Positions 25,401-38,016 of a DNA stretch of 64,000 nucleotides are shown here, piece after piece. The stretch is from the NCBI GenBank assembly GCA_015146655.1, contig VKHL01000005.1, forward strand, positions 124,001 through 188,000, given 5' to 3'. Below the pieces are notes generated by a model. That model had not been told where the DNA came from, did no database searches, and was given only the letters and a program-made list of their open reading frames with translations. The stretch comes from Ochromonas danica. Taxonomy: Eukaryota > Sar > Chrysophyceae > Chromulinales > Chromulinaceae. The position numbers were made by a program, and so were the translations under genes. Numbering within the stretch: position 1 is the stretch's first letter; every line of letters begins with the position of its first letter.

Positions 25401-28400
25401 TTCCCTCCAGACCAGATCGACGGCAAGCCCTTCAAGTCTGTCTTGCAGTCTCTCGTCAAGACTACTAGTACTACTAGTGCTACTGGAGGAGGAGGAGGGG
25501 GAGGGGGAGGAGGTAGTGGTACCTCGTCGTCATCGTCTAGCAAGCTGAAGACCTTCCCTGTGCTACCTGGTGGTAACACTAGCAGTCGTCCATCACTACC
25601 TTTGACTGGAAGACAACAACAACAACAACAACAACAAGCATCTACTAGCTTGTTACAAGATAATGATCTAACTGGATCTACCGCTACTGAAGGGAGAGCA
25701 GCAGGAGGAGGAGGAGCAGCAGGAGGAGGAGGTGAGGTGGGTAGTGCCCCTCCTACCTCTTCCTCTCTCACTGCTACCGCTGTGGTAGCCTCGGCCTCGT
25801 CAACGAATGGCCAGGACGAGACGGCGACTACCTCTATTACCACTACCTCTCTCACTGCCACTGCCACCCCTGCGGTAGTGCAGACGATGACTACCTCTGA
25901 GGAAGCCAAGAGAGACCAAGAAGACTACCAGCCGCCTCCTGACTCCTTCACTCTTCCTTCTCAAAGCAACCGACTTCGCCTTGCTACTAGAGCAGTAGCA
26001 GGAGGAGGAGGTGGTGGAGGAGGAGGAGGAGGAGATGAGGAGCAAGAGGAGGAGGAAGAAAGCGCTAGACATTTCCTTCGGGTAAGAATGACCCGACCAT
26101 CTCCTTCTCCTTTATTGTCTGACAGTTAGTTTGTCTGTTTGTTTAGGATCTCGAGGCGCGCATTCATCAAATGGCTCGCGAGGAGGAGCAGGAGGAGGAG
26201 GAGCAGCAGGAGGAGGAGGAGAGAGCTGCCTACAACCGCCTGGACCATCGACGCGATCGTGACAGCGACGACGAAGATGACGATGACGAGGATGATGACG
26301 ATGACGACGATGATGAAGAAGACGATGACGAAGAGGAGGAGGAGGAGGAGGAGGTGCTACTAGCTCGTCGTCGTCTACTAGCCGTTAGCCACTCTCGCCA
26401 TGACCGCGACAATGACGACGACGACGAGGAAGACGAAGAAGAAGAAGAAGAAGACGAGGGAGTGCACATGGTAGAGCTGCGGAGACAGGCTATGGTAGAA
26501 AGTCTCATTGGCATGGGCTTCCCTGTGGACTGGGCGCTGAGAGCTGCTGAACACTGTGATACCTCTACCTCTGAGTCAGCTGCTATCTCATGGATTATTG
26601 AGAGAATGGAGTTAGAGCAAAGCAACTTGAATGAGTTGGAACAAGACTCTAGTAGGTACACTACCTCCTCCACCTCCTCCTCCACCTCCACCTCCTGCTA
26701 CTACTGTACTACTGTGTACTGACTAACCGTGTGTGTGTGTGTGTGCTTTGACTAGTCGGGTTGCGGATGGTGAAGATCTAGATGAAATGGAAAGTGCAGG
26801 TATCGAATATTTCATTCAACGTCACAGTGGTGGAGCAGGAGGAGGAGGAGGAGGAGGAATGGGTATCCACTCCTCAGGCCATGGTCTGTTGTCAGGTGTG
26901 GGAGGGGTAGGAGGAGGTGGTAGTGGTACTACCTCTGCTCGTGGCTTGTCGACTACTAACGATCGCAATGGCGCGGCTATCAACCGCAGACTAGTAGCCG
27001 AGCACATGGCAGAGCTACTAGAGAACACTAACCTAGGACTAGGCCTCTCTTCTCCTGGAGGGGTTGGAGGAGGAGGAGCAGGAGGAGTAGGAGGGGTAGG
27101 AGGAGGAGGTGTAGGAGGAGGAGGTAGTCCAGTGCGAGAGGAAAGCTTTGGCTTCCGTCGAAACCTCACGAATGCTGCCGCTACACTGGGACTGATGCTT
27201 CGTGATGATGCTAACAGCTATGCTGCCTTCCTGTCCTCTGCTACCTCCGCCAAGTCTTCTTCCAAGAAGTCCTCTGGACTGGGTGGAGGAGGAGGTGGTG
27301 GTGGAGGTGGTGGTGGAGGAGGAGGAGATCTCTTGCTCAAGAAGGAAGCTAACGGCGGAGACCTCGCCTTCAGTGACAGTGCTACCTGGAACAACGAGCC
27401 TGTTACCTTGCCTATACTACCCGGTGCCTACACAGTGAGAAGAAGGAACGACCACGACAAGCAAGAAGTGCTAGCACAGATAGTAGACCTGGACGTCATT
27501 GACATGATCTCTATCATAGCCACCTGTGAACTAGCTCTCTGCATCTATTATGCTAGAGGCATCTTCTTGAGACTACTGCAATACAGCCGACTAGCCTCTA
27601 CCTCTACCTCTACCTCTACCTCTACTAACACTACCTCTACTAACACTACCTCGAACACTACCTCTACCTCTACCAACACTACCTCTAACACTACCTTTCC
27701 TACCTCTACCTCTACTAGCACTACCTCGAACACTACCTCGTCTACCTCTACCACTACCTCTTCTACCTCATCAACCTCGTCTACTTCAACCTTCTCTGTG
27801 TTGCTATCCAAGCTGTCTGTGGAGAGTGTGTCGATGTTGTTGCGCAACACTTTCAAGCAACACCTCCTCCTCCTCCACCAGACTGACCGCCTGCTACCTC
27901 TGCTAGCCTATGGCAGTCTGCAAGGAGAGGTAGTCAATCGCTTACCGGCTATCGCACCGTTCTTCCCGCCTAACCGCCTCCTCCTCCACGAGCTGCTAGC
28001 TCAGCTAGACCTGCGCTTCTACCCCGCTAGCCTCTCCTCCTTAGCCACTGAGGATAGCAGCCAGCAGGGACTACAGGAGATAGCCTTCTTCGTCACTTCA
28101 CTGGTTGACAATGTGACCACTGGGATGTGTGCTACTACTGCTACCTCGAGGAGGAAAGGAGAGGTAGGAGGAGGAGGAGGAGGTGGCAAGGAGGTGGAGG
28201 AGGAGGAGAGACCTTCCCCTATCTCTTCTTCTCTCTCTGCGTTACAAGATCGATTACTGTCGAAAGTGGGCTTCCACAGTCCCACTACCTCTACCACCAC
28301 CACCTCCTCCTCCTCCTCCTCCACCTCCTCGGTGGCGGCGAAGTCCAACGATTTGCTACTCGAGATTATCGACTTCTCTCTATCTAGCCTCGAGAGAGCG

Positions 28401-31400
28401 CTATCGAGCAAGTATGAAGGCTATGACTGGATAGCAGGTAGTCTACAACGCAGCGGCAGCGGAGGAGGAGGAGGAGCAGGTAGCAGTCTGTCCTCACCTG
28501 ATGCCTTGGATGGCTCTGCCTCACCTTACATCCTCTTCGCCTACTTCATGCTACGCACTATCCTCATGGCTACTACCAGCTATATGACCAATCAACTTAA
28601 TAGCACTGCCACCACCGCCACTACCTCGGTAGTGGAGAATGAGAATGAGGTAGTGGACCCACTCCCTCTACCACTCCCTCTATTATTGTCAGGCGAGGGA
28701 GAGGAATTATTATTTCCAAGGCAATGGGCGATCAATCGGTTAACTTCACCTGACGCGCTCTCTCGCCTTGTTAAGTTAGCGTCTAGTTTGAATGATTCGT
28801 TACGATTCTGTGCACACGATCTCATTGGATTAGTCTTATCACTAGTCAATATGAGACTCTATCAGAGCTATCATTACTCTTTCAATCGACTTGCTGCACA
28901 CTGTAGCATGAGTAGTGGTGGTGGTGGAGGAGGAGGAGGTGGTGGTGGAGGAGGAGGAGGAGTGGGTAGGGATGATGACTCTCTTACTAACACACCTAGT
29001 AGTCTCAATGCCTATACTCGACTACGCTATCAAGGGTCTATCTCCCAAGCTATCGCAGCCGAGTACTACCTCTCTCTCGCGAAGGAGAAGAAGCTGCTGT
29101 ACATGATGGGTAGTCACTTGAAGATAGAGACACTGGAGAAGGTCTTCTACACTCGGTACACTCGATCAATGACTACCTTACTCTTTGAATGGAACCTCTT
29201 GAGGAAGCAGTTGAATCTAGCAGGTAGTGGCACTACCTCGGTGCACTACCTCAAGGCCTATAAGAGGGAAGCCTTGGCCTACCCTGCAGGCAAGAAGGCA
29301 GAGGTAGAGGTAGAGGAAGAGGTAGAGGTGGTAGCACCACCACAGAGACAGAGAGAGCATATGGTGCGAGTGGTACAAGTGACAGCGACGAGTGTTACCG
29401 TTACCTGGAAGCTCAGTCCTCCTCCTCCTCCTCCTGCTCCTGCTGCTCCTGCTCCTGCTCCTGCTACCTCGAGTAACAGAGAGGAAGATAAAGGGTCTTC
29501 TACTACACCAACCTCGGCAGGAGGGTCTCAGAAGCAGCAGCAGCAGCAGGTAGTGGAGGAAGAGCAGGAGGAGGAGGAGGAGGTAGTGTACAACCTCTTC
29601 ATTACCCCTCAGTCTCACATCAGCATGGACCACCCCGTCCTCGTCCTCTCCAATCTAGACATGCAGAACACTTTCCGTATTGATGATCTCGAGTCAGACA
29701 CACTCTATGAGGTCTCCATCCTACCCGAGCCCTCCTCCTCCTCCTCCTCCACCACCACCTCCTCCTCCTACCCCCTCTCTCTCCTGGTAGCTACTGATAC
29801 TGAAGCTTCTTTTGGCTTCCAACCTGACAGTCTATCTCCTAATATCCTCATGACATCCTCTAATCCAATCATTCTTCGTAATCAAGCTAACAAGAAATGG
29901 TCTACCGCTAGAGCTAACACTCGTCTAACCTCTGGACTACATCGTTGGGATGTACACATTGATCGTTGTATTAGTAAGAACATCTTCATCGGGGTAGCCA
30001 GTAAAGAGGCTAGACTGGATAACTATGTGGGATGTGATAGTCACGGCTGGGCATTCTTAGCCAACAAGGCGATCTGGCATAACAAATCGAAAACAAAGAG
30101 TTATGGTGAGCTATTTCGATCAGGTGATACTGTAACAGTGATACTAGACCTTGAAGTAGGTACCTTGTCGTTCTCGTTGAATGATAGACCTCTAGGCTGT
30201 GCTGTAGAAGGGCTAGTAGGACCGTTATACCCTGCTTTCTCATTGTATAATGAAGATGATCAGATTACCATCAATCAAGTAAGAAGCTTACAAGATACCC
30301 ATCATAGTGGTAGTCATGGTGGTGGTGGAGGAGGAGGAGGAGGTGGTGGTGGTAGTATGAAGTATGGATCATTTACTGCAGAGCATTTGTTAGATCGATT
30401 AGATAGTTTGAGATTGCTATTAGAGTTCTTTGAGATGGGTTACCATCACTATGGTGGTGGTGGAGGAGGAGGTGGAGCAGGAGGAGGAGGAGGAGGTGAT
30501 AGTAGCTATGTCAAGAAGATTCGAGAGCTCTGTCATCGCGAAGAGTTTCGTCCTTTACGAACTTTCTTCTCAGATGACCTCGTGGAAGAGATTTTCTTAC
30601 GATGGCAGCAACAACTACCTCCTCCTCCTCCTCCTCCTCCTCCTCCTCCTACTGCTCCTGCTCCTCCTACTGTCAGACGTCCTATTCGTTGCTTCCCTAC
30701 TGCAGGAGGACAAATTGTCTTCGTGCATATAGACGAGCAGCTGTGCGATGACTTCAGTCGAGGTAGCTGTCCTCTGCACCGCCTCGTGAAGGTAGAAGAC
30801 CGACTAGCACGAGTGGTAGGAGTGGGTAACCATCGCCTTTGGTTCCGTTGGGAAGGAGAAGGTGATCTCTTGGGTATGACCCTTGAGACTCTTCAACACA
30901 GTCTAGAGAAAGGAGTGATACAGCTACTACCACTAGACAACAACCACACTGCTCCTCCTCCTCCTGCTACCACTACCGTAGTGGGTAGTGAGAAGAGAAG
31001 GAGCTTGTTGAATACCTCCTCCTCCTCCTGCTCCTGCTCTCATCTTGCTATATCTCCTCTCAGTGATCTACCCCCTATAGAGGCTATGACTACCCCTGCC
31101 ATGGTGTTCTCCTACCTCTGTGCTATGACGTTACGCTGGACTCGTCAACATGACGACTACCTCATGCACTACCTCGTCGAACTATCCTGCCAGCTTGCAA
31201 CTGACCCTTTCTCTCTACCACTCTCTACCATTGCCTATCATATGAATAGTAGCAGGAGGAGGAGGAGGAGTGGGTGGAGTAGGAGGAGGAGGATCTCTCT
31301 ACACTACCATGAGGCCTGGCAGGAGATAGAGGTATTACAGAAGAGCTTCTCAATGGAAGAGATTCTTCTTCGTGTGGTAGTCATTCATGTCTTCAATGAC

Positions 31401-31639
31401 AGTCTGCTACCTCTGTTACCCATGGTGACGTCATTTACTAGCAGTGAAGAGGTAACAGAGAGTCCAGCGAACCATCCCACAGCTTTGTTATGGAGAAACA
31501 AACACTTGATATACCCTGAGGTAAGACTCTAGTACTAGTTACAGTAGTCCTAATAGCTATAGTAGCTATAGTAGCTATAGTAGACATAGTGATGATGACT
31601 AACAATGACTAACAATGACTAACAATGACTGACTGTGTA

Positions 31640-31700
<61 letters not shown>

Positions 31701-33993
31701 TGTCTGTGTCTGTGTGATCTATAGATCAAGCAGCAGCTGTTAGCCTCCATCTCAGAGAGATGTACAGGTAGCAAGACCCGAGAAGACATGCTACCTGCTA
31801 TTCGCTCTCGCATACAGTCAGCTTTGCGACACTTCGGCAGTAGCTCTCTGCTACCTCCTCCTCCTCCTCCTCATGCTATGGAAGGAGGTACAGCGGCTGC
31901 TACCTTCTCTAGCCACGCAGACATGATGCATGCTATCTTCAGTTCGTCTTCACCTAGTCGACCTGTAGGGGGTAATGTGGGCGCTAATGCTGATCATTCC
32001 TTTGGTACACCTAGTCGTCATAGCACGATGATGTCAGCAAGTCTACCCTTGGCTAGTAATGACAAAGCAGGAGGAGGAGGTGGTGGTGGAGGAGGAGGAG
32101 GAGGAGGAGGGGTGGGGAGTAGCTTGCTAACCTTGGCAGGCTCTAGTCCTCATCAGTCATTGCAAGGGTCCATCCAGCGCAGACCTTTCGCTACCACTGC
32201 TACCGCCTCCCATGAGGTAGCAGGAGGAGGAGGAGCAGGCATGACTAGTGCTACCCCACCTCTGATACTACCTGACAATCATAATGGACAGAATGTTAGC
32301 CAGCTGTGCTTCTACATCGAAGACCCACACAGCTATTGGGAGAGAATCCAACTAGCTACCTCCTCCTCCTCCTCCTCCTGCGGACAGGGGGATCGACTAC
32401 TATTAGCTGGGAAGTGGGATCTGCTACATCTGCTACAAGTCTCCTATGTAGGTCAACTAGTCCGTTGGCTAGAAGTTCTTCAAGTTAGTTACGGTAACGA
32501 GCTGGTAGCACATCTTCGTGATCAACGGAATGGTGCCAACGGAACTTTCAACAATCTACCCTATAGCAAGCAGAAGGACCCAGCGCTATGGGAACAACTG
32601 CTACGAGAGGTAGACAACAACATCTTCCACTTGCACTACCACGTCTGGTCACTACCTCCTCCTCCTCCACCTCTAGGTAGTGGAGGTAGTGGTAGTGTCA
32701 TGAGATGTGTTCCCTTTGTAGTGCAGAATCTGTTCTTACCTACCCCTTCTACTTCTTCTACCTTCTTTCGAGGGCTACATGAGCAGGAGCAGGAGGAGGA
32801 GGTGTACTTCCCATGGAGTCCTCCTCCTCCTCCTGCTCCTGCTACTCCCTCTACAAGAAAGACATACAACCGCTTAGTGACCTGTCTATCAATCCTCGAA
32901 GATCACAATGGTAGCAGTGCAGTAGATGACTGGAAGGCGTTACCTCTTCTATCGGAATGGTCTACCTTCCTCGTCTTCGTGGAGGAGACATCTCATCAGA
33001 TACAGACTACCCTCGAGCTAGTCTTCCCTTCTCATGACTCACTAGCAGTCATTGAAGAGCGAATCTGTCAGACATGGCAGTCACAGTCACAGGCTAGTTG
33101 GGCTAGTCTAGTGCTACAACATGTGCACAGTGTAGGTGTGTTCCTTGGTGTGTGTCTGCGCACAGGCTGTGGTGCTTACCTCTCGTTACCTCATACGATC
33201 TTCTACCACGCGCTGTGTAATAATACCTTACACTCTGTAGAAGGAGATGTAAAGGAGATTCCTTTTGTTGCTTCTGCTGCATTAGCTTTACGATTTGGAT
33301 TGTGTTCTGTCTACCCTGAGGTTAGCCCTCCTCCTCCTCCTCCTCCTCCTCCTCCACCACCTCCACCTCCTCCACCTTGTACTGATTATGACTAACTATG
33401 ATGTTGACTATGATGTTGACTATGATGATGACTGTGTTGTTAGTCTGTGATGGATCTCTTACATGAGCGAGAAGTGGTAGATTTGTTACGATATGGTTCA
33501 GCTGCTGCTCGTCTACCTCGTTGGATGCGATTACATGCAATCTACCACCCACCTTGTCAACCAGAAGACTATGCTATTGAGGTACACCTCCTCCTCCTCC
33601 TCCTACCTCTCTCTCTCTCTAATGGCTATTGTGTGGTGGTGGTGGTAGTGCTTCTGGCTGTGTGTCTACGATCTCTCTCCTTCACAATGTCATTTACTAC
33701 TTGACACACTCTTCCCTGCTAGCCATGATGAAGAAGAACAAGACTACCTTGACCATCTTCTCCAACAAGATAGCACCACTACTAGCAGTACTACTAGCAT
33801 TCACATTCTACCTCCTCCTCCTACCTCTGACCACCATGGTATGGATATCATCGTGTCTCCGGAACAACATGGATTGATTATCCCGAGCTATCCCAGCCTA
33901 GCAGCAGCGCATCGTGGAGTGAGAAGACTTCTAGACAGACTATCCTCTCCTCCTCCTCCTGCTACCACTACCACCACTCCTTCTAGTAGTTAG
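13458..33993 (+). CDS. Giant HERC1-like protein: RCC1, SPRY, UBA, FN3, SPRY, HECT-like
   Basis: Eleven exons join in one frame: 13458-14322, 14468-14913, 15002-15633, 15747-24428, 24965-25077, 25249-26081, 26147-26655, 26756-31520, 31725-33320, 33444-33581 and 33649-33993. They encode 6307 aa. A TAA directly precedes the ATG. In order: a helical N terminus; seven RCC1 blades (about 277-665, e.g. WSWGNGGNGRLGLGD); long helical regions; a concanavalin/LamG-like region (about 2390-2740); SPRY (3470-3600, across two introns); an acidic run; UBA (3968-4015, with the MGFP signature); FN3 (4890-5045); a second SPRY (5052-5195); and a HECT-like end (about 6080-6300). RCC1 plus SPRY plus HECT recalls the metazoan ubiquitin ligase HERC1. 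The HECT-like part lacks the catalytic Cys and much of the N lobe. Poly-Gly, Ser, Pro, Glu and Gln runs are frequent. The family call is good; ligase activity is doubtful. Confidence 0.8.
24541..24960 (+). repeat. Minisatellite inside intron 4 of the giant gene
   Basis: About 400 bp consist of degenerate units such as TTATGTTAATGGTATTG with variants of 12 to 18 bases. They fill most of the 536-bp intron 24429-24964, the longest intron of this gene. The repeat lies between the two halves of the first SPRY domain and is non-coding. Confidence 0.85.
31643..31692 (+). repeat. (TG)n microsatellite in intron 8 of the giant gene
   Basis: About 25 TG units occupy much of the 204-bp intron 31521-31724, close to its acceptor. 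A UG-rich tract just upstream of an acceptor can influence splicing in other eukaryotes; an effect here is only possible. Confidence 0.85.
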
Positions 33994-34159: not shown

Positions 34160-35728
34160 TCATTGTCCTCGACTTGGACAGTTGTAGTAGTAGTCAAAGA
34201 GCGTGTAGAGTGCCTTGGCCTATCACAATACAATCACAACAAGAGACAGAGAGATGATGATTAGCACTAGCACTACAGTATAGCACTACCTTACACTACA
34301 CTATCACTACCCCATCTAGACTATTTGGGGTGGTTCCAGGCCATGGCGTCGCCATAGGCCATGTGGCCTAGACAAGACTATCACCACTAGGCCACATGGC
34401 CTAACCTGAATCCAGGCCATGGCCTGGGCCATATGGCGTATGGCCTAGAACCACCACCCTAACCCCATTACTGCTACCCCTTCATACTATGACTATCATG
34501 ACTAATTAACTAACTAACTAACTAGACTGACTTACCTTGAGATAATGAAAAGAGACACTTTCTTGACTACAACATTCAAACCCTACTTTCAATCTATCTC
34601 CACTATACTTCACATACCAATCGTCTCCATGTGGTGGGGGGCGGTAATCTAAATGATGACCTGGAGGGAAAGGATGGAATCGTTCTCTTCCTTGTCTATC
34701 ACGTGTATCATAAGGTGTTATTTTACCACCTACTAATAGACAATTAGCAACATTAACATCTTCCCAAAAGCCTTTCTGATGTGGGAAACATCTTGGACGA
34801 TCAAGATTCTCTCCTAATACTGTTAATGCCTTTTGATCGATCACATACCCTGCTCCTCCACTATTGAAGACTAACTGGTTAGGTGGTGAAAACACACGTC
34901 CTAAGAACAAACCACTACTACTACCATCACTACCATCACTGCTATGCTGTAACGATTGTATCTCTGGACTAGAGAGGTAGTGACGAAGATTCTCTACTAA
35001 GATTAACATGTCATCACCTCCTAAGAGGAAGAAGTCATAACGACTATGGTAATGTTGATAGATAGTCTTCCAGATAGATCGACTCTTCTGCCACATGTTC
35101 TGATAGCTTTCTACTCCTTCATGTTCAATAGCTAACGAAGGGATAGAAGGGTCAGTCAAGTTAGAAAAGGCTATAAAGCCATCACATCGTTTACCCCAAG
35201 TATCACGACTAGCTCGTACATTCTCTTCATGTGCTGTAGAGATAGTATAGATACCACAGAAGAGTCGTATAGGAGGAGGAGTAGGAGGAGGAGGGGTAGG
35301 AGGAGGAGGAGGAGGAGGTTGGATGACATCTAGTAGACGAGAATCACTACTTCCTTTAATAGCACAAGGACTACCTGGATGACGCGTACGAGATGTAATG
35401 ATGCTGTCAGGTAGTTGACCAGAGAGGAATGCTTGATGAGCAACTGTTTCATCAATAGGTAGTAAGCCATCTCCTCCTCCTCCTCCTCCTATCATACCAC
35501 CATTATTGACAATAGGAGGAGGAGGAGGAGGAATGACAGCAGCAGCAGCAGCAGCAGCAGCTTTCATATCCTTCTCTTCTTGTTGTTGTGGAGGAGGTGG
35601 AGGAGGTGTAATGAGGAGGTAGTCAGGTTGACAGACTTGACAAGATTTCCTGCAAACATCACGAATCTTTCCAACTTGAACATCTTCTTTATCACACTGA
35701 CCTGCAGCTGCCCATTTAGGACCTATCA

Positions 35729-35807
<79 letters not shown>

Positions 35808-38016
35808 TAGAATCACAAGACAAAAGTCATCCTTCTCACTCATCTAACTCACATTTTACGAGATATAAGTCTTCACAAAACTTCCCTTCTCTATCACAAA
35901 ATCCACATGATTTAGGACAAGCAAATAATAAATGAAACTTTTCTCTTTGACAATATTGATGAATCACATTCTTTCTATCTTCTTCTTCTACTACTACTTG
36001 TCCTTTAAATGCCTTGTCTATCTCAATCTGACAATAGTTCTGATAGTGTATATCTTGACATAATAGATCATGTCGAACATGTTCACTATGATCATCTAAA
36101 GCATCTTGTAGATTAGCTTTAGGATCTATTGGAGGTGGTTCGAAGAAGACTGCCTTCATAGACCCTCCTCCTCCTCCTCCTCCTGCTTGTGTCAGTTGTA
36201 AAGTCTTCAAACCATGTTGACGAATTAGATCACGTCGTTTTCGTAATCTTTCTTCTTCTTCTTCATTGTTAACCTTCTCTTCATTTGAAAAGATAGAAGA
36301 AGACATTTCTTGATCACTACCACCACCTCCTCCTCCTCCTCCACCACCACTACCTCCTCCTCCCCTACTAGAAGAGAAATGGAAGTCAACAAGAGGTTGT
36401 AGTAGTAGATCTGTCTCATTAACTAGAAGGCTACTATACTGTGTAAAGGCATTCATTACTGGTGATTGATCTTCTAATAGACCTGGATAGACTTCTCGAC
36501 TATACCATGAGAAACTAGTACACAACAGACGAGGTGTACTACTAGTAGCAGCAGGAGGAGGAGGAGGAGGAGGGGGTTGCTCTGTAAAGAGTGGAGAGCT
36601 TTGAACAGGTCCTATCTCCATCGGATCAACGGCTAGTCCTAGTCCTGCTACCTCTGCTACCTCTTCTTGTCGTTGTTGTAGTAGTACAGCAGGTCTACCT
36701 ATAAACCTGGCCTGATAGACACTCTCTTGTGCTAGTCGATCTAACCACTTCCTACCTAACTGCACTACCACACGATCTACACCTCGTTGACTAACATGAT
36801 CACCTACTGGTAACGCACTACCTAAGAGGTTGTGTTGTTCGATTGCTACATGTGCACACCGTGCTTTGACTACACTGTGACCACACAGCCATGCACGCAT
36901 AGCATACTCGACTAGACTGTACACTGTGAGGTCACTATCACCTTCCATTGAAGAGGTAGAAGAGGTAGTGGTAGAGGTAGAAGAGGTAGTGGTAGATGAT
37001 GAGGAGGAGGAGGATAGAGAGTCGAAAGGACCTAATAGTTGTAATGTGGTATACGCGGTAGCGAAGGTATGAGGTAGTGAAGGAGAGAGTAACTCATACT
37101 TCCCTACACTGTTACCACTACTACTACCTCCTCCTCCTCCTCTTAGTACTCGACCACTATTAGGATCTTCCCAACGAAGACGAAATTGCCAATCAAACCC
37201 TGCGACTAACTCTTCATCTCCTGGTACTACCCGCACCTCCTCCTCCTTCTCCTCCTCACTACCACTACCACCACTACTGCCATCAACTAGTAGTAGTAGG
37301 TCTTCAGAGGGATAGACCAAGGCACCAGGGGTTCTCCATAAGGCAAAGGCTAAAGGAGAGAGAAAGTTTGGTGTCACCAGGCCGAGAGGCATGAAGACTA
37401 CCATGACCTCCTCCTCCTCCGCCTTCTTTAGTGACAGAGAGGCTAGTGCAGTGTTTTGAAGATCAGCACGACTTCCTCCTATTGGCTGGTAGACATGATG
37501 AACCATATGTGAGTAGGAGGAGGAGGAGGAGGAGGAGGTCCAGAGATCCCAAGAGCGAACAGCTGGGTATGACCCTTGATCTGCGATGATAATTGACTTC
37601 AAAGTGACCATCTCCTCACTCTGGGAGGAGGAGGAGGAGGAGGAGGAGGACAGGATGGACTGGATAGACTGCTGTAGAAGGGATGGGTTAGGATTGTGTA
37701 CTGTCACGATAACAACAGCAGAGCGAAGAACTCTCTTCCCTTGACCTCCTAGACCAGCTGTAGGACTAGGAGGGTGAGCATGAAGTTCATCCAAAAAGTC
37801 CACACAAGCTTCAGAGAGAGCTGGATGATGACTATGACCTTTATGACCATTTTGACCATTTTGACCATTTCCATTTGGATGACTATTTCCATTATTATGA
37901 TAATTGTTATTATTATTGTTATTATTAGCTCTCACAGAAGAGAGAAAGAGAAGAGAAGACAAGGTTAAGAGAAGAGATAATGACAAGATCATTCTTCCAC
38001 AAAACCTACACCTCAT
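34160..38016 (-). CDS. Fusion: degenerate GT27-like domain, two ShK domains, core-1 galactosyltransferase-like GT31
   Basis: Three exons can be read, 38016-35853, 35722-34536 and 34219-34160, giving 1136 aa. A signal peptide or anchor (1-31) indicates the secretory path. Residues about 85-440 resemble polypeptide GalNAc-transferases (VVIVTVHNPNPSLLQQS, FDWQFRLRW, AMRAWLCGHSV), but the metal-binding DxH is absent (FMPLG in its place) and so is the WGGEN motif. Two Cys-rich ShK modules follow, ending CPKSCGFC and CRKSCQVC. The second is split exactly by the first intron, which proves both exons belong together. Residues about 874-1130 match C1GalT1 (SRDTWGKRC, NSGGAGYV, FHPFPPGHHL, then CCSQESVSFHYL). 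The DDD site of animal enzymes reads GGDD here. The last exon continues that similarity. A role in Golgi O-glycosylation is inferred. Confidence 0.78.
34330..34454. repeat. Nested inverted repeat in last intron of the GT fusion gene
   Basis: Inner arms 34356-34371 and 34387-34402 are perfect 16-bp complements (AGGCCATGTGGCCTAG) around a 15-base loop. Outer arms 34330-34360 and 34427-34454 pair imperfectly (GTGGTTC, one mismatch, AGGCCAT). The element lies within intron 34220-34535 and can form one long hairpin on the transcript. Confidence 0.8.
35731..35806 (+). repeat. (CA)38 microsatellite in intron 1 of the GT fusion gene
   Basis: An uninterrupted run of CA (TG on the coding strand) fills more than half of the 130-bp intron 35723-35852. 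It abuts the acceptor, so the usual pyrimidine tract is replaced by (TG)n. Confidence 0.95.

Follow-up and report, generated by a model that had tools for sequence, protein, structure and literature searches.

A predicted Ochromonas danica protein joining a probable GT27-derived pseudoenzyme domain, ShK modules and a C1GalT-like GT31 domain

Does a single algal gene encode two successive enzymes of mucin-type O-glycosylation, or has one of the two lost its chemistry and been kept for another purpose? The question is raised by a minus-strand locus at positions 34160–38016 of a 64,000-nucleotide stretch of Ochromonas danica DNA (hereafter the window; assembly GCA_015146655.1, contig VKHL01000005.1, positions 124,001 to 188,000), where an initial annotation had described a fusion of a polypeptide GalNAc-transferase-like (GT27) domain, ShK modules and a core-1 galactosyltransferase-like (C1GalT, GT31) domain. 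That placement is correct, with the ATG at 38016 and a TGA ending at 34160 in a third exon, and the three exons (38016–35853, 35722–34536 and 34219–34160) predict a protein of 1136 residues that runs, from N- to C-terminus, from a hydrophobic segment through the GT27-like domain (approximately residues 71–515) and the ShK region to the GT31 domain. We hold this anatomy with high confidence, and consider the odds somewhat in favour of a secreted or Golgi-anchored galactosyltransferase to which a dead GT27 module is attached. One gene model, the identities of the domains and the residues they have lost or retained were read from sequence; what is said below of activity and acceptor, of location, fold and disulfides, and of the part played by the pseudo-domain is argued from these.

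The C-terminal domain (residues 873–1117; 34536–35270, and on into exon 3) is of the C1GalT type that had been proposed for it. Compared by phmmer with all PDB chains, its best match is Drosophila C1GalT1 (7q4i; E 6.3e-34, with 82 of 226 aligned residues, or 36%, identical), followed by chondroitin synthase 3 at 2e-5, and the Pfam Fringe model reaches 18.4 bits, under its cut-off of 21. Sixteen positions of the Drosophila enzyme, with roles taken from sections of its published description (PMC9065035), were mapped onto the algal domain, and ten are kept: Glu150, Lys158, Asp182, Asp183, Ser220, Asp255, Trp300, Tyr304, His324 and Tyr325. Among them are the xED base (Asp255, here Asp1043), the C-His (His324, here His1114) and the peptide tryptophan Trp300. 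The active site, short of one metal ligand, thus appears intact for the most part, and since the first aspartate of the DxD motif is not kept we file the domain only as a related GT31 domain and not as C1GalT1 itself; it is probably a working relative of that second-sugar enzyme.

The N-terminal domain (residues 71–515; 36472–37806), delimited by sequence and profile comparison, is interrupted by Ser, Gly, Glu and Ser/Thr runs, which leaves the unmodified sequence without a relevant Pfam or PDB match (in Pfam, exon 1 returns only TarH at E 0.1, below the cut-off). Its relationship to GT27, as originally suggested, emerges once homopolymer and S/T/G/E/K runs are collapsed by rule, which shortens it from 432 to 366 residues. 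All 14 distinct PDB sequences that the collapsed copy matches at E ≤ 10 are GalNAc-transferases, ranging from GalNAc-T4 (7.2e-9) to 8uhv (0.0099), an entry named 'Glycosyl transferase' that we take to be the Toxoplasma enzyme. A profile built from eight solved GalNAc-T domains gives the collapsed copy 41.8 bits against a maximum of 3.0 in 2000 shuffles, and hhalign gives a probability of 97.3 and a score of 83.0 (with -norealign), the best of 100 shuffles reaching 3.6 and 25.3 (run without -norealign). When the same profile is run against all uncollapsed window frames of at least 60 residues together with 500 shuffles, the three entries of this domain come out on top (10.7, 10.6 and 7.9 bits; the next at 4.7). 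Identity to GalNAc-T2 amounts to 65 of 292 aligned residues; Pfam returns only FA_desaturase for the collapsed copy (E 0.048, below the cut-off), an NCBIfam search yielded nothing relevant, and with the unmodified domain as query six further weak matches turn up in the genome (E ≤ 0.1), the best (0.001) on C64. Many frames of the window (26727–33395 and elsewhere) contain long Ser, Gly, Glu and Pro runs encoded by (CTC)n/(GGA)n-like repeats; such low-complexity runs can hide domains from profile searches, and here collapsing them restored a clear match.

Residue mapping suggests that the catalytic equipment of this GT27 relative has gone. Thirty of the 83 positions invariant in five GalNAc-Ts are kept. 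All three manganese ligands, Asp224, His226 and His359 in GalNAc-T (as given in sections of PMC4432651), are replaced, by Met209, Leu211 and Ile392 respectively, as are the catalytic Trp331 (Thr364) and, also of the WGGEN motif, Glu334 (Ser367). Also replaced are Asp176, Ser225, Ile253, Phe280, Gly308, Gly309, Phe361, Arg362, Lys363 and Tyr367, several of the roles coming from parts of a study of the snail enzyme whose numbering is shifted by 28 (PMC6994419). The WGGEN and GGLF stretches are gone, in line with the earlier observation that DxH and WGGEN are missing, and the functional positions that are kept comprise the uridine contacts Thr143, His145 and Arg201, whose positions were likewise converted from the snail numbering, together with Trp282 and Ala307. 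Residues 60–515 contain exactly four cysteines (71, 378, 387 and 499), of which the last three align with Cys345, Cys354 and Cys423 of GalNAc-T2, while Cys71 precedes the aligned part and sits about where we presume Cys126 to fall. GT27 catalytic domains have two disulfides formed by four cysteines. It is this combination of conserved cysteines and an emptied active site that gives the domain the look of a pseudoenzyme, and a GT27-derived pseudoenzyme is what, from its residues, we take it to be. No Ricin-type lectin domain is matched in exon 1 (Pfam, E ≤ 1), and ShK modules follow instead.

What might such a domain do? The initial annotation had it presenting substrate to the GT31 part, which is possible. 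Among the acceptor-site positions Trp282 is kept and Ile253, Phe280, Glu334, Phe361, Arg362, Lys363 and Tyr367 are changed; because most of the mapped acceptor contacts are lost, peptide binding in the manner of GT27 is doubtful and presentation of the classical kind less likely than a role in folding or dimerization. Other surfaces of the pseudo-domain could hold a substrate, and folding, dimerization or chaperoning would be at least as likely.

The mechanism that we propose has, as stated, an even chance of being right. The GT31 domain would be the working part, most likely using UDP-Gal in an inverting single displacement, with Asp1043 as base and the metal bound by Asp959 and His1114, to add β1,3-galactose to an α-linked HexNAc on Ser/Thr. 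The N-terminal domain would descend from a polypeptide GalNAc-transferase that lost metal binding and catalysis, probably retaining the fold and two disulfides, and would most likely serve as a permanent non-catalytic partner, whether as a folding or dimerization scaffold or as a holder of the acceptor glycoprotein, with the ShK modules and low-complexity linkers forming a disulfide-braced stalk between the two. The hydrophobic segment at residues 9–28 (37933–37992) may be a signal peptide or a type II Golgi anchor; 19-residue Kyte-Doolittle windows above 1.6 begin at residues 5–11, with one more at 204. Partnerships of a dead and a live transferase have precedent in EXTL3 and in Cosmc/C1GalT1, to which we return below.

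Several results weigh against this reading. In the GT31 domain the DxD motif is incomplete (Gly957-Asp958-Asp959, Gly957 standing for Asp181), so that one of the two metal aspartates is kept, and altogether six of the 16 mapped positions are changed (Gly151, Arg152, Leu155, Asp181, Tyr213 and Tyr218), including Arg152 to Tyr, Tyr213 to Pro and Tyr218 to Phe. Cys208 is replaced by Arg, the likely partner of Cys246 lying one column off, and the contiguous Cys pair is kept. With such substitutions the domain may be impaired or may differ in specificity. For the N-terminal domain, the unmodified sequence finds no GalNAc-T in the PDB by phmmer and scores 13.9 bits on the GalNAc-T profile, which means that the match needs the runs removed. 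Single-sequence scans, which reach close relatives only, found no relatives of the N-terminal domain in a collection of viral contigs and none of the GT31 domain in viral or prokaryote collections. Structure models predicted from single sequences are poor, with a pLDDT of 39.5 for the N-terminal domain and 34.9 for the GT31 domain.

Rankings obtained with such models are hints only. The fold search that the annotation had recommended for the N-terminal domain proved a weak test: GalNAc-T4 and GalNAc-T1 appear at ranks 2, 5, 6 and 7 (E 0.07–0.17) behind an exostosin at rank 1 and with unrelated proteins among them, and none of the 448 Foldseek matches reaches E 0.001. The equally poor GT31 model still has C1GalT1 as its two top matches (E 0.019 and 0.024; all 581 lie above E 0.001), which makes the GalNAc-T ranks of the N-terminal model weak but not empty.

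Of the alternatives, the one that survives best, although we consider it unlikely, is that both transferase domains are non-catalytic and that the gene product, two pseudo-transferase folds together with ShK modules, serves as a chaperone or, once secreted, as an adhesive or structural protein of the cell surface. The metal and catalytic residues of the GT27 part are lost, and so is the first DxD aspartate of the GT31 part, much as Cosmc is described to have lost its DxD (sections of PMC9065035 and PMC7185993). The algal GT31 domain, however, unlike Cosmc, keeps Asp255, Asp183, His324, Trp300 and Tyr304, and the one-sidedness of the decay, which lies with the GT27 half, suggests that the GT31 site has stayed under selection. 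Improbable, in our judgement, is a bifunctional protein in which the GT27-like domain is still active with another donor or by metal-free chemistry, even with its uridine-contact positions Thr143, His145 and Arg201 kept and with chondroitin synthases as a bifunctional precedent: Asp176, Asp224, Ser225, His226, His359, Trp331, Glu334, Arg362 and Tyr367 are all replaced, to say nothing of the missing WGGEN and GGLF stretches. Published sections do describe metal-free GT-A enzymes (GT14 and prokaryotic GT6; PMC7185993) and, as a further bifunctional precedent, the Skp1 GT2–GT74 proteins (PMC8724618).

Could the N-terminal domain instead have come from another GT-A family, namely GT60, GT7 (as in chondroitin synthase) or GT2? 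GT27, GT7 and GT60 are placed in one clade in part of PMC7185993, and the genome does have GT60 genes. The collapsed copy, however, has no match at E ≤ 10 to Pfam GT2, GT7, CHGN or GT60 (PF11397), with HMMER filters dropping most matches above about 0.1, and there is no chondroitin synthase among its PDB matches. Compared directly with one of the genome's own GT60 proteins, the domain gives no phmmer hit and an hhalign probability of 1.0, though that same GT60 protein scores 28.1 bits on the GT27 profile. With no match to that GT60 protein and shuffles falling far below, GT27 comes closest of the families that were tested, and we regard an origin in one of the other families as highly improbable.

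Whether the two halves belong to one gene turns on the ShK region between them. After splicing, this 119-residue region reaches 28.9 bits to Pfam ShK (PF01549; gathering cut-off 20.9), summed over two stretches that individually pass E ≤ 10, which upholds the annotated position of ShK modules between the two transferase-like domains. The first module (residues 653–707; 35896–36060), the weaker and more divergent, has six cysteines and was recognized partly by eye from their pattern. The second spans model positions 2–37 of 37 across the intron 1 junction, its 5′ part running from residue 714 to the intron (35853–35877) and its 3′ part up to residue 752 (35631–35722). Unspliced exon 2 attains 14.0 bits and unspliced exon 1 has no ShK match at E ≤ 1 (Pfam); because the cut-off is reached only after splicing, the N- and C-terminal halves are tied into one gene, as had been claimed, and the sequence case for a single gene rather than two is strong but indirect. 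That two neighbouring genes were merged on paper, one for pseudo-GT27 and ShK and another for GT31, is very improbable indeed, for although the parts are separated by a (CA)n intron and the gene model comes from sequence and not from a transcript, a ShK module spans that intron and a GT31 gene beginning inside exon 2 would, by eye, be without a signal sequence. Four other places in the genome also carry ShK modules, and three of the host frames resemble, by eye, glutathione peroxidase (L025), aldo-keto reductase (L026, two modules) and prolyl 4-hydroxylase (L027); given such hosts, ShK seems to be a general secretory module in this genome and not a special toxin-like part.

The rest of the gene model, all on the minus strand, is as follows. 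Exon 1 (35853–38016) is a single open frame covering residues 1–721 plus one base, with a GT donor after AAAAT, and is followed by intron 1 (35723–35852; GTGAGT..ATAG), which contains the (CA)n tract. Exon 2 (34536–35722) ends in CTCAAG before the donor GTAAGT of intron 2 (34220–34535; GTAAGT..GATAG), and exon 3 (34160–34219), preceded by TGTGATAG, supplies the last 19 residues and the TGA. The arrangement of intron 2 recurs, and exon 3 is supported, in copies of the 3′ end found elsewhere: one copy each on C40, C203 and C16 has sequence similar to exon 3 (AKALYTLFDYYYNCPSRGQ in the gene itself) with the same splice signals, and at exon 3 and these signals the other copies on C40 and C16, which are inverted, have decayed further. 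These truncated copies, consisting of the last coding part, intron 2 and exon 3, are dispersed on C40, C16, C203 and C55. Those on C40 (L002, 1466–1890 and 2681–2999) and C16 form inverted pairs within about 1.8 kb, with a single copy on C203 and one short copy on C55, and between the inverted C40 copies lies sequence similar, as judged by eye, to the 3′ end of the neighbouring convergent gene. The dispersed copies look like foldback-type duplication or mobile capture.

The host is a photosynthetic eukaryote: its assembly (31.2 Mb in 337 contigs) has 47 light-harvesting-family matches, counted exon by exon, and a radial-spoke gene lies near the locus. Four of the light-harvesting matches, identical in score, lie in tandem at regular intervals of about 2.4 kb (C224, 8673–16382). 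GT60 (PF11397) has 12 matches at four genome places (C1, C16, C20 and C162), that on C20 being an intact 545-residue frame, and a search of the genome with the human GALNT2 domain, run without a positive control, found nothing. Two observations concern other glycosyltransferases. Four GT2-family (PF00535) matches of equal score lie within 20 kb on one strand (C33, about 139656–158967), a tandem cluster of which one member (L020) is a 400-residue frame, and a PF00535 frame at L018 382–2061 (C85) is preceded by a Gly-Asp-Asp stretch with the appearance, by eye, of another GT-A domain.

This context bears on the claim that the two outer domains correspond to consecutive steps of mucin-type O-glycosylation, which needs qualifying, as the first step is not to be expected of a pseudo-GT27 and the genome has GT60 genes. 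According to sections of a 2021 review (PMC8724618), mucin-type glycans in protists are usually started with GlcNAc by way of GT60, apicomplexans are the only protists whose genomes have GT27, and in the protist group that includes diatoms, oomycetes and algae the mucin-type O-glycans have yet to be characterized; a survey of transferases in green and red algae does not name GT27 anywhere in its main text (PMC3797821). Against this background, the acceptor of the GT31 domain may be α-GlcNAc and not α-GalNAc. In C1GalT1, Tyr218 contacts the 4-OH of GalNAc (a section of PMC9065035), and its replacement by Phe is compatible with GlcNAc having taken the place of GalNAc as acceptor, but is a change of one residue and proves nothing. 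Our evolutionary scenario is speculative and on balance unlikely: an algal GT27 initiator, acquired by descent or transfer, may have lost its chemistry and been kept as a chaperone or acceptor holder, the C1GalT-like enzyme now galactosylating α-GlcNAc-Ser/Thr made by GT60. The fusion bears on both the reported range of GT27 and the uncharacterized glycans of the algal group: it may be a relic of GT27 beyond that range, and it offers a definite candidate for the enzyme of the second step in mucin-type glycosylation of algae. A literature search combining ShK with glycosyltransferase and galactosyltransferase found nothing, and the architecture is not described in the titles and abstract openings (with few subscription papers) retrieved on GT27, GT31, C1GalT, stramenopiles, diatoms and pseudo-transferases; sequence databases may already include the fusion, without naming it, among their records of related algae.

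How does the protein compare with known systems? Like C1GalT1 (GT31; 7q4i), it has the base Asp, the metal His, the second DxD Asp, Trp300, Tyr304 and the contiguous Cys pair, and differs in having Gly for the first DxD Asp and in its fusion to ShK modules and a GT27-like domain. With the GalNAc-Ts (GT27; GalNAc-T4 5nqa, GalNAc-T2 4d0t) it shares collinear homology over the catalytic domain, three aligned cysteines with a fourth near the expected place, and a C-terminal motif near CKSFKWYLENVYPE, whereas it is without DxH, the metal His, WGGEN and a lectin match and carries many low-complexity inserts. Chondroitin synthases (PDB 9o4g, 9q8z) combine GT31 with GT7, and thus also place a GT31 domain and one of the GT7/GT27 clade in one chain, but their domain order is the reverse of the algal one, their GT31 match is weaker (2e-5), and the collapsed N-terminal domain does not match them. 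To our knowledge the bi-domain exostosins (GT47–GT64) are without ShK modules, and they belong to other families; what they share with the algal protein is the fusion of a live transferase to one that apparently does not bind nucleotide. EXTL3 couples a working GT64 domain with a GT47 domain which apparently does not bind UDP (as described in part of PMC9178029), and the algal protein would add another example of a transferase fold that is dead but retained next to one that is probably live. Cosmc (C1GALT1C1), finally, is described in sections of PMC7185993 as a dead GT31 protein that has lost both DxD and xED and acts as the C1GalT1 chaperone. Both would be dead transferase folds dedicated to a C1GalT1-type partner, but Cosmc is a separate protein derived from GT31, and the algal fold is derived from GT27 and covalently attached; if the evolutionary scenario above is true, the Ochromonas protein would be a covalent, GT27-derived counterpart of Cosmc.

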